DNA from: Paeniglutamicibacter sp. Y32M11
GTDB lineage: Bacteria > Actinomycetota > Actinomycetes > Actinomycetales > Micrococcaceae
DNA length: 64,000 bases
Direction: 5' to 3'
Assembly: GCF_019285735.1 (NCBI RefSeq)
Contig: NZ_CP079107.1
Location: 2,790,001 to 2,854,000, forward strand
Each line of letters opens with the position of its first letter. Position 1 is the first letter of the stretch. Below, piece by piece: positions 7,464 through 61,116 of the stretch. A model generated the notes under the pieces. It ran no database searches. It had not been told where the DNA came from and saw nothing but the letters and a program-made list of their open reading frames with translations. Made by a program: the position numbers and the translations under genes.

Positions 7464-7508
7464 AAAAAGGCCCTTGTTGCATCGTCGAAACGATGCAACA
7501 AGGGCCTT
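7464..7508 (-). terminator. Rho-independent terminator of tuf
   Basis: A perfect 19-bp inverted repeat with arms AAGGCCCTTGTTGCATCGT and its complement around a four-base loop. On the minus strand it is followed by a run of T, 36 bases past the tuf stop. It ends the leftward str operon and separates it from the giant membrane-protein gene. Confidence 0.93.
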
Positions 7509-7543
7509 CTCTAGGCTGTTAGGCCAAGATCAGCGAAGTAAAC

Positions 7544-24529: not shown

Positions 24530-24579
24530 AAGTTAAAGACCGCTGGCCCGCAAAACCAAACGGTTTTGCGGGCCAGCGG
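24530..24579 (-). terminator. Rho-independent terminator of rplJL
   Basis: An 18-bp perfect stem (CCGCTGGCCCGCAAAACC and its complement) with a four-base loop, followed on the minus strand by a T-rich tail. It starts about 15 bases past the rplL stop and separates rplJL from the acyltransferase gene. Confidence 0.92.
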
Positions 24580-24594
24580 CTAAGAAGCGAAGAG

Positions 24595-31567: not shown

Positions 31568-31580
31568 TTTCGGCACCCAA

Positions 31581-31631
31581 GGTCGGTGTGGTGGGGCTCC
31601 GTTGACGGAGCCCCACCACCCCGACCTTTTT
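31581..31631 (+). terminator. Rho-independent terminator after aspB
   Basis: GGTCGG/CCGACC outer and TGGTGGGGCTCCGT/ACGGAGCCCCACCA inner stems with a two-base loop, followed by TTTTTG on the plus strand. It lies between the aspB stop and the convergent response-regulator gene. Confidence 0.92.
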
Positions 31632-46083: not shown

Positions 46084-46131
46084 CCTCGAACTTTGTCTCA
46101 AAGACTTGATACATTGATACAAAGTTCGAGG
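46084..46131 (+). promoter_or_regulatory. Operator/promoter of the GntR-controlled membrane-protein operon
   Basis: A perfect 13-bp inverted repeat, CCTCGAACTTTGT and ACAAAGTTCGAGG, flanks 22 bases. Inside and overlapping the right arm are two tandem TTGATACA repeats (46106-46121). The promoter may be TTGTCT, 16 bases, TGATAC, both inside the palindrome, so a bound repressor would block RNA polymerase. The downstream genes encode a membrane protein and a GntR/YtrA-type regulator, so autoregulation is the simplest reading. Confidence 0.7.
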
Positions 46132-46148
46132 TTTGGGAGCACCACTTC

Positions 46149-47972
46149 ATGATCAATGCACTGACATCCGTCGGTTTCGGCTTGGCGATATCCGCCGCGC
46201 TGATCTATGTCCTCTTGCGCTTTTTCGTGGCAGCACCAAACGCGACCAACACCACCGAAGCCATTTCACGCCATGCCTTCTGGACGGCACTGATAGCGTT
46301 TTTGGCCTCGGGAACCTCCGGCCTGTCGAATCTGTGGGCCATCGACCCCGAAACCCACACCGGGATCATCGTCGATGGCCAACCCGTTTTGCTGATGCAT
46401 GCCGCAGCACCCGGCCTGTGGCTGACGCTTGTTTACATCCTGGGCCAATTCACCTGGCCCCGGCATTTAAAACCGGTGCGCAGCGCCTCGCTAGAGGTAC
46501 GCAGCGTCAAGACGTTGGTGCCTAAATTCTTGGCAGGCCTGCTCCTGGTCTGCACAGTCATCAGCACGGTGGCCATTATTTTTGCCTGGAATGACCCCGG
46601 CGCTCCGCACCGGGAGGGTAACGACTCGAGCTCGCAGGAGATGAGCTACAACGGAGAGACCGATGACTTCGGGAACCCCGTTGACGACGACGGAAACCCG
46701 ATAGATCTCGATTCCACCGACGCCGAGGGCAATGTCCCCTACATTTCTTCCATCACCGGAACTCGATCCGGCAACGAGGTGGGGCCCTACCTCATGGGCG
46801 GCCTGGCCTTGGCCCTTCTGGGGAGCGCCGGAGCAGCGGCAGTCATTGTCCGGCGACCTCCATTAGATGCACTGGACGCCGGGGAGAATTCCATCCTGCG
46901 TTCGGTGTGGATCAATCGGCTCTTGCGTACCGCGTCGATAGTTGTTGCCGGCTTTGGCGCCGCCTCCGCGTCGTATCTCGCCGAAGGCATCCGAGCTCGG
47001 GGCGACTGGGCCGTCCCGATCGCGGCCGGCGGCCCCTTCTTTAGCGAGAGCGCACAAAACCATGCGAACGCCCTAAGCCTGATAAGCGGCTTCGGCTTCC
47101 TACTGCTGATCGTCGTGGTCGTGAGCTGCTCCCCTCCGAAACTTGTTGATGTTTCTCCCATCGCGCTCGCCGGAAGCTCGGCTCCGTCCCGTTCGTTTTC
47201 CACGGCACGAGACTTCCTGCTGCTGATCCACGGCATCGGACTATTCGTGATGTTCCTGGTTGTCATGTTCCTGGGGCTGCAGGCCGAGGGGGCCAGTTAC
47301 AGCACCACAACCTCCGCCGACGGGACCCAAACCTTCTCCTTTGACTCCACCGACCCCACCCGCCTGCAAACCATGGGGAACCTAGCCTTGGCCATTGCGC
47401 TGGCGGCGGGCAGCTATCTGCTGCTGAATCTGCTGGCCGCATGGGTGATCTCTCGCAGAGTCGGCGGACAGAGCCTCGAGACACCCCGCCGGGGTCTGCT
47501 TCCGGGGTGGTTCCTCACGGTGCTGGCTCTGGCAACAACGGTCGGAGTAACATCGGTCATCAACTTTGCGGTTGCCGGCCCGCCCGCTCTTCGCGAGATC
47601 GTGTGGTGGGCAGCCGCGGTGCTCGTCATCGTCGCGGCCCTTGCTGGTGCGCTTTACCGCAACGCGACCCACCGTGCACGGTTGGCTGACGCCAGTCGGA
47701 GCGAAGACACCAAGATCCGTTTATTGCTGGCTCAGCGCGGCGCCCGGATGGTCGGTGGCGTTTCCTTGCTGCTCACGTCGTTATTGGCAGATCCGACATT
47801 TTGGACACCCAGCGGACCTGGTTATGGCGAGGGTATGTACTACGACCAGGATCCGTCCGGCTTCCAGCTCATCACCTTGGCGCTGGGTATCATTCTGTGC
47901 CTGCTTCCGGCGGCCACTATTTATCGTGCACCGCGGCCAATTACGCAATATTCCACGCCGAGCAACCATTGA
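46149..47972 (+). CDS. Large polytopic membrane protein of unknown function
   Basis: A 607-residue membrane protein with about twelve hydrophobic helices. Between helix 4 and 5 it has a long, highly acidic loop (about residues 155-215) with NPVDDDGNPIDLDSTDAEGN, resembling a calcium-binding Asp-rich loop. No transporter or enzyme motif is recognisable. Promoter-operator at 46084-46131 precedes the ATG, and the downstream GntR gene starts inside its stop (TTGA overlap), so the two form one transcription unit. The loop suggests a protein exposed to the outside. Confidence 0.8.
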   Translation: MINALTSVGFGLAISAALIYVLLRFFVAAPNATNTTEAISRHAFWTALIAFLASGTSGLSNLWAIDPETHTGIIVDGQPVLLMHAAAPGLWLTLVYILGQFTWPRHLKPVRSASLEVRSVKTLVPKFLAGLLLVCTVISTVAIIFAWNDPGAPHREGNDSSSQEMSYNGETDDFGNPVDDDGNPIDLDSTDAEGNVPYISSITGTRSGNEVGPYLMGGLALALLGSAGAAAVIVRRPPLDALDAGENSILRSVWINRLLRTASIVVAGFGAASASYLAEGIRARGDWAVPIAAGGPFFSESAQNHANALSLISGFGFLLLIVVVVSCSPPKLVDVSPIALAGSSAPSRSFSTARDFLLLIHGIGLFVMFLVVMFLGLQAEGASYSTTTSADGTQTFSFDSTDPTRLQTMGNLALAIALAAGSYLLLNLLAAWVISRRVGGQSLETPRRGLLPGWFLTVLALATTVGVTSVINFAVAGPPALREIVWWAAAVLVIVAALAGALYRNATHRARLADASRSEDTKIRLLLAQRGARMVGGVSLLLTSLLADPTFWTPSGPGYGEGMYYDQDPSGFQLITLALGIILCLLPAATIYRAPRPITQYSTPSNH

Positions 47973-48349
47973 GTATCCAAATTGCCGTTGACCTTCGTGA
48001 TGCAACGCCCCCGTTTGAGCAGATCCGCACGCAGATCGCTTCCCTCATCGCCGTTGGTCGGCTGGCCGACGGGGCACGTCTACCCACCGTTCGGGCGCTA
48101 GCCACCGACCTTGGTGTGGCCACCGGGACCGTGGCTCGAGCGTACAAGGAGCTTGAGGCCGCGGGTTTGATTCAGAGCAGGCGACGGCTGGGGACCATGG
48201 TGACCCATGCACCGGCGGACTCTACCCGTGCGGCGGATGAACACCTTCAGGTTAAAATCGCTGATCTGATCGCCGCCTCCCGGCAAGCGGGAATCAGCGA
48301 TGAGACATTAGTGTCACTGCTTCAGGGCCGACTGAGGAACACCGACTAG
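47969..48349 (+). CDS. GntR/YtrA-type transcriptional regulator
   Basis: A 126-residue member of the small YtrA subfamily of GntR regulators: PFEQIRTQIASLIAVGRLAD, then GARLPTVRALATDLGVATGT with the winged-helix recognition helix, then VARAYKELEAAGLIQSRRRL, then GTMVTHAP. There is only a short C-terminal dimer region and no large effector domain. YtrA proteins repress ABC-transporter or membrane-protein operons in response to envelope stress. The TTG start (47969) overlaps the TGA of the membrane-protein gene. It is the likely reader of the operator at 46084-46131. Confidence 0.88.
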   Translation: MSIQIAVDLRDATPPFEQIRTQIASLIAVGRLADGARLPTVRALATDLGVATGTVARAYKELEAAGLIQSRRRLGTMVTHAPADSTRAADEHLQVKIADLIAASRQAGISDETLVSLLQGRLRNTD

Positions 48350-61048: not shown

Positions 61049-61065
61049 CCGCTGAGTATTCAACG

Positions 61066-61116
61066 AAAAAGAACCGTGGTTGATCCCATTTCTGGGATCA
61101 ACCACGGTTCTTTTTT
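61066..61116 (+). terminator. Rho-independent terminator after the DedA gene
   Basis: GAACCGTGGTTGATCCCA and its complement, plus an A-run and six T, make an 18-bp perfect stem with a four-base loop. It follows the DedA gene and abuts tRNA-Thr on the other strand, so it can stop readthrough both ways. Confidence 0.94.

Follow-up and report, generated by a model that had tools for sequence, protein, structure and literature searches.

What controls a polytopic membrane protein that belongs to no named family, when its gene is preceded by a long inverted repeat and followed by a gene for a YtrA-type GntR regulator? This arrangement is found in the window analysed here, a 64,000-nucleotide stretch of the genome of the soil bacterium Paeniglutamicibacter sp. 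Y32M11 (G000; 4.17 Mb, one contig). The order at the locus is a ppk-like gene, a NUDIX/histidine phosphatase, a small GNAT, the operator, the membrane protein, the regulator, and thyA-like and dfrA-like genes. The ppk-, thyA- and dfrA-like neighbours (polyphosphate kinase, thymidylate synthase and dihydrofolate reductase) were named by eye, and the NUDIX/histidine phosphatase and GNAT genes by Pfam. The inverted repeat ends 17 bp upstream of the membrane-protein gene (Table 1). A preliminary description of the locus had reported the length of the membrane protein, a regulator start inside its stop and no visible ABC transporter; the first two are as described, and inspection of the neighbouring ORFs by eye likewise revealed no gene for an ABC transporter.

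Table 1. Position of the operator elements and of the two genes in the window.
Feature	Position	Strand	Remarks
Extended inverted repeat	46084-46131		18-nt arms (46084-46101 and 46114-46131), 12-nt centre
Left flank CCTCGAAC	46084-46091		Complementary to 46124-46131; varies between species of the genus
Operator core TTTGTCTCAA-AGAC-TTGATACA, half-sites one and two	46092-46113	+	Identified by conservation over loci
Third half-site TTGATACAAA	46114-46123	+	Direct repeat of the second half-site, 8 bp on; perfect in 14/14 genus loci
Membrane-protein gene	46149-47972	+	607 aa, ATG start; polytopic, internally duplicated, below all family cut-offs
Acidic Asp-rich loop, codons 145-214	46581-46790	+	Predicted outside; long form confined to the genus within alignment A1
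YtrA-type GntR regulator gene	47969-48349	+	TTG start at 47969, 4-nt overlap with the membrane-protein stop (TGA, 47970-47972)

The 126-residue regulator matches the Pfam GntR domain (PF00392; E = 1.4e-14, 53.9 bits against a cut-off of 27), and the solved chains that it matches best are small proteins of the GntR type. Its winged helix is N-terminal, as in the YtrA subfamily, and the Pfam domain ends near residue 78, so that both the overall length and the C-terminal part agree with the approximately 120-130 and 50 residues given for YtrA proteins in the available parts of PMC6746942 and PMC4494728. The long palindromic operator with distant GT/AC half-sites that is typical of YtrA regulators is also found, before the regulator's own operon. 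The best NCBIfam match is the Rv1152 equivalog NF053730, but at 91.7 bits the score falls far under that family's cut-off of 170. A role in anti-phage defence was considered and rejected, the only matches being weak helix-turn-helix ones of the regulator.

With no ABC-transporter genes in the operon, the locus falls outside the class in which YtrA is paired with such a transporter. It has instead the layout of the SCO3812-like actinomycete group, in which a membrane protein replaces the ABC transporter (Tsypik et al. 2016, as reported in the available parts of PMC6746942). This corrects the earlier generalisation that most YtrA systems are paired with an ABC transporter, as a lone membrane-protein partner, and with it the arrangement of a YtrA and membrane-protein operon, is already described there. 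The likeness to the SCO3812 group is one of arrangement and does not imply homology with SCO3812's partner, and the window protein is duplicated and longer. In Sulfolobus acidocaldarius, YtrA(Sa) is likewise a small GntR/YtrA protein whose operon includes an uncharacterised membrane protein; it has a narrow regulon and recognises a palindrome with extra half-sites, which in that case covers the transcription start. It differs from the window system in that the regulator gene comes first, the core is 14 bp, there is a second target locus and the system is archaeal; this comparison, drawn from the available text of PMC6746942, rests on arrangement and operator and not on kinship of the membrane proteins. 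The B. subtilis YtrA also represses an operon with membrane proteins, ytrGABCDEF, which is reported to be induced by lipid II cycle inhibitors. This operon, in contrast to that in the window, has an ABC transporter, and the available parts of PMC12772383 report no consistent role for it in antibiotic survival.

What is new here is a duplicated protein family named by no library searched, together with an unusual operator. A membrane-protein family without name or domain, which a profile search detected in 134 of the 395 genomes examined in this taxonomic family, is thereby tied to one regulator and one defined operator. The link between regulator and operator gives a direct handle on the inducing signal and, through it, on the function of the membrane protein, a function that the YtrASa paper, in its available parts (PMC6746942), left open for its own membrane-protein targets.

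As judged by comparison of loci, the operator goes beyond a palindrome of two arms, with three half-sites in all and outer flanks that change in concert. The arms of the inverted repeat pair at 17 of 18 positions (94%), with the outer 13 bp perfect (46084-46096 with 46119-46131), and two TTGATACA units follow each other directly (46106-46113 and 46114-46121), the second of which extends into the right arm, just as the preliminary description had it. The core consensus across loci is TTTGTnTCAA-N4-TTGATACA, and 27 of 56 columns of the operator region are invariant, mostly within this core. Relatives such as L055 and L057 carry 24-bp sites of the form TTTGTnTCAA-N4-TTGATACAAA, and the window locus has three half-sites. 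The third half-site (TTGAnACA; TTGA[G/T]ACA in its genus form) is perfect in all 14 loci of the same genus (g1, taken as Paeniglutamicibacter) versus 9 of 56 others (4/19 and 5/37 by locus set, with one mismatch in 2 and 4 more). It has precedent, since weaker extra half-sites lie 7-12 nt from the centres of GntR-family sites (Suvorova et al., PMC4494728) and YtrASa has secondary half-sites (PMC6746942), as far as the available text of both papers goes. When first-order Markov shuffles of the window were searched for 18-nt inverted repeats that have 17 or more matches and enclose a loop of 3-20 nt, none turned up in 12 shuffles; the real window holds four besides that of the operator. These (7465-7510, 24539-24580, 31579-31628 and 61065-61116) are long inverted repeats that look terminator-like by eye, unlike the operator repeat, after which no U-tract is found.

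The preliminary description had made conservation of the palindrome with the regulator in relatives the point on which its reading would stand or fall. Two sets of loci bear on this. Of 148 genomes searched, 35 matched the membrane protein, counting the source genome, and all 35 loci (34 plus L001) make up set 1. In this set no membrane-protein hit was obtained at L064 and only partial ones at L062 and L065, and these three were kept as loci from the initial genome search. Set 2 consists of 40 loci from 40 of the 134 genomes, hand-picked for spread over genera. The core was scored as mismatches to TTTGTnTCAAnnnnTTGATACA, which has 18 fixed bases, within roughly 330 nt before the membrane-protein gene in set 1, and in set 2 in a longer stretch reaching up to the regulator, where a site with five mismatches is less telling. 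A regulator is adjacent in 33/35 and 37/40 loci, or 70/75 together with the window locus included. All of these (33/33 and 37/37) have an operator with 0-5 mismatches, whereas the five loci without an adjacent regulator (2/2 in set 1, 3/3 in set 2) show 7 (L061, L151 and L167) or 8 (L063 and L149), the regulator of L149, L151 and L167 being absent from the stretch fetched. In the genomes of L061 and L063 (G052 and G069) only weaker GntR matches are present, the best of which in G052 has other neighbours, among them an ABC-type gene recognised by eye. Since the mismatch counts divide in this way, operator and regulator go together across the loci compared, and the membrane protein can persist alone; the proposal thus held, with 70 loci keeping the operator and the five that lack the regulator lacking it too. 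In G008, a genus member with no membrane-protein match, there was no operator match at up to two mismatches. In 29 of 33 loci, the regulator gene begins within or immediately next to the stop of the gene before it. The five loci without a regulator provide natural versions of the membrane protein that lie outside control by an adjacent regulator and operator.

Outside the genus, a TTGAC motif stands 8-9 nt before the core in 9/18 and 16/37 loci (25/55), compared with 3 and 14 occurrences in all in 200 nt further upstream in those two sets. This position places the -10 box in the centre of the operator, where some of the hexamers are poor (e.g. GTAGAT, GAGACT). The motif is absent from this position in the remaining 30/55 loci outside the genus and is found there in 0/14 genus loci. 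For the window locus, where the TTGAC place is empty, only weak promoter candidates were seen by eye and none is claimed. Loci with more than four mismatches were left out of the promoter, flank-permutation and flank-energy tests of set 1 (32/35 used), and those with more than five out of the 70-locus hairpin, half-site and set-2 promoter tests (70/75 and 37/40 used).

In the source genome, the 22-bp operator pattern matches once perfectly and once, at 3950017, with two mismatches. Based on the single perfect site, the predicted regulon is this operon alone. A wider regulon was considered and rejected, as the matches to a looser pattern with up to three mismatches (24 and 15, giving 39) barely exceed those of the reversed control (17 and 17, giving 34).

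From the sequence comparisons, we consider it highly probable that the two genes form an autoregulated operon, in which the YtrA-type repressor silences both the membrane-protein gene and its own. The comparisons support the unit, the operator, their absence together, the promoter-like overlap outside the genus and the single perfect site in the genome, and we infer repression, the number of dimers, linked translation, the signal and the role of the membrane protein; repression rather than activation is taken by analogy from relatives (available parts of PMC6746942). A YtrA-type GntR dimer would bind TTTGTnTCAA-N4-TTGATACA over the operon promoter, with the third half-site probably recruiting a second dimer or strengthening binding, and the bound repressor would block transcription of both genes. 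A signal, most plausibly an envelope disturbance, would lower the occupancy of the repressor. Both proteins would then be made together and, given the overlap of the two genes at the membrane-protein stop, presumably in amounts that are linked. The sole effector would be the membrane protein; that it acts in the envelope is a tentative suggestion by analogy with the B. subtilis operon, possible rather than probable. Of the self-repressing stress unit envisaged in the preliminary description, the self-control of the YtrA and membrane-protein pair is supported by conservation, by the single site and by the TTGAC overlap, and its link to stress or cell-wall agents and the effector role of the membrane protein are conjectural.

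Around the core, the flanks of the genus loci differ between species yet stay largely self-complementary, a pattern that looks real within the genus. In permutations and shuffles that ignore relatedness, the genus flanks pair at 78 of 112 positions on a fixed axis versus 63.1 expected (0/10000 permutations as high; 74/112 when one locus was given another axis), the covariation score is 0.159 versus 0.083 in shuffles (0/500 as high), and 6 of 20 flank pairs have changed on both sides, as was reached by 7/500 shuffles. Further pair types number 12, and 49/500 shuffles had as many, so that this count is not exceptional. Measured by mean energy, folding is better with the real right flank than with a swapped one in the genus (14 loci), in a thinned genus sample (8) and outside the genus (18), with 0/300 permutations matching it in each case. 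Plain pairing outside the genus is by itself weak (51/144 versus 41.1; 653/20000 permutations as high).

It is quite possible, if somewhat short of probable, that this symmetry reflects no working hairpin at all. A site read by a homodimer, or template switching during replication that mends imperfect palindromes, would likewise yield flanks that change together, and a flank hairpin at z<-2 is missing from 43 of the 56 loci outside the genus, of which 37 do not reach even -1. Of these two routes, flank-specific reading by a homodimer is unlikely, because species of the genus share a very similar DNA-binding domain yet have different flanks.

We think it unlikely that the inverted repeat serves chiefly as an RNA hairpin, whether as a terminator for the upstream genes or as a shield for the ribosome site in read-through transcripts, with only the core as operator. 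Invariant columns lie mostly in the core, which is lost with the regulator as a protein site would be, and the repeat is without a U-tract downstream. The flank pairing, the covariation and the pairs changed on both sides are what such a hairpin would produce, as are the folding energies inside and outside the genus, but the further pair types are unexceptional, and with shorter flanks L041 and L038 are ordinary among shuffles (28% and 9% equally stable). With longer flanks, a hairpin at z<-2 is found in 14/14 genus loci, 13/49 other co-directional loci and 0/7 loci with a divergent upstream gene (70 loci; Fisher p=0.038 for 27/63 versus 0/7), a contrast that carries little weight because all seven divergent loci belong to genus g23. 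These seven were set by eye (the script mislabelled L040, L043 and L044), and the uncertain L064 was counted as co-directional. Flank mismatches of the G.U and A.C types stand at 9 to 4 in the genus and at 13 each in the remaining loci with z<-2, counted over related sequences; these numbers do not separate RNA from DNA symmetry.

Within the autoregulated operon that we favour, flank complementarity may form an extra hairpin layer. Such an operator would have two layers, a three-half-site core switch and an outer-arm RNA hairpin that arises only in transcripts from upstream genes, and the membrane protein would then be made solely from its own repressed promoter; we regard this fuller version as doubtful. 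The covarying flanks are in any event a separate, testable oddity. Literature searches returned nothing on point about read-through shielding by an operator hairpin, and nothing on topic about Arthrobacter YtrA/GntR regulators.

Turning to the membrane protein, no family match above cut-off was obtained in Pfam, NCBIfam, PHROGs or PADLOC, and the absence of a known domain noted earlier is borne out by Pfam and NCBIfam. Searches with the members of alignment A1 (33 sequences of the 35 loci, with L043 and L064 left out; mean column identity 28%) against Pfam and NCBIfam, with the A1 profile against PDB sequences (best E 0.012) and with five shorter or paralogous proteins against Pfam gave nothing convincing; a Ferric_reduct match at 5e-4 in one of the 33 members was taken as chance. 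An alignment of the N-terminal with the C-terminal half (hhalign 98.1%, E=9.6e-13, 231 columns) shows the protein to be an internal duplication, read as a unit of six helices, duplicated, plus one extra terminal helix; a plain hydropathy cut gives about ten peaks. Under the positive-inside rule, the distribution of charge predicts an inner position for the basic motif loops and an outer one for the acidic loop. This acidic loop (approximately residues 145-214, with 15 D/E and 2 K/R) had been noted before as exterior-like, and it is present and predicted outside. Its long form with GNP-D repeats is found in 13 genus rows of A1 and gapped in the 20 others, which makes it unlikely to be a general working part. 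The invariant residues of A1 are P104, R236, R251 and R260. In Paeniglutamicibacter terrestris, the only relative returned by one genome-collection scan, the membrane protein is 90% identical.

That the membrane protein is a sensor, which binds the regulator or lets it go through its conserved basic loops in the cytoplasm and so switches the small YtrA protein, is quite improbable: the frequent pairing and overlap or abutment with the regulator gene, invariant residues in or beside loops placed inside by charge and the small YtrA effector domain (available parts of PMC4494728) would suit it, but 5/75 loci retain the protein with neither regulator nor operator beside it, so that it has a use of its own, and in the available parts of the Sulfolobus study the membrane proteins are regarded as targets of regulation (PMC6746942).

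Single-unit relatives of the protein precede YtrA-like genes in other families, in genomes of 8-9 Mb from the class (ORFs read for L095). The L095 protein, which lies outside the alignment, matches the N-terminal half at 92.2% and not the C-terminal half, and the single-unit loci L094, L095 and L096 have two operator-like palindromes approximately 40-53 bp apart. The source genome itself has a second YtrA-type regulator (G000:C1:1038805-1040314; L100:2306-3815), which overlaps the end of a membrane-protein-like ORF of 370 aa and has two upstream palindromic sites of related but different sequence; kinship of this ORF with the family was considered and is not claimed (hhalign 19.9%). Tandem duplication of the membrane-protein gene is seen at G006:C1:500119-504220, G012:C49:83645-87689, G007:C1:2077039-2080669 and G733:C17:204754-208037, and in G006 and G012 the regulator sits between the copies. 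At L043 (G013:C1:200241-200879), the first membrane-protein copy has an in-frame stop and looks decayed, and the frame of the second copy is open.
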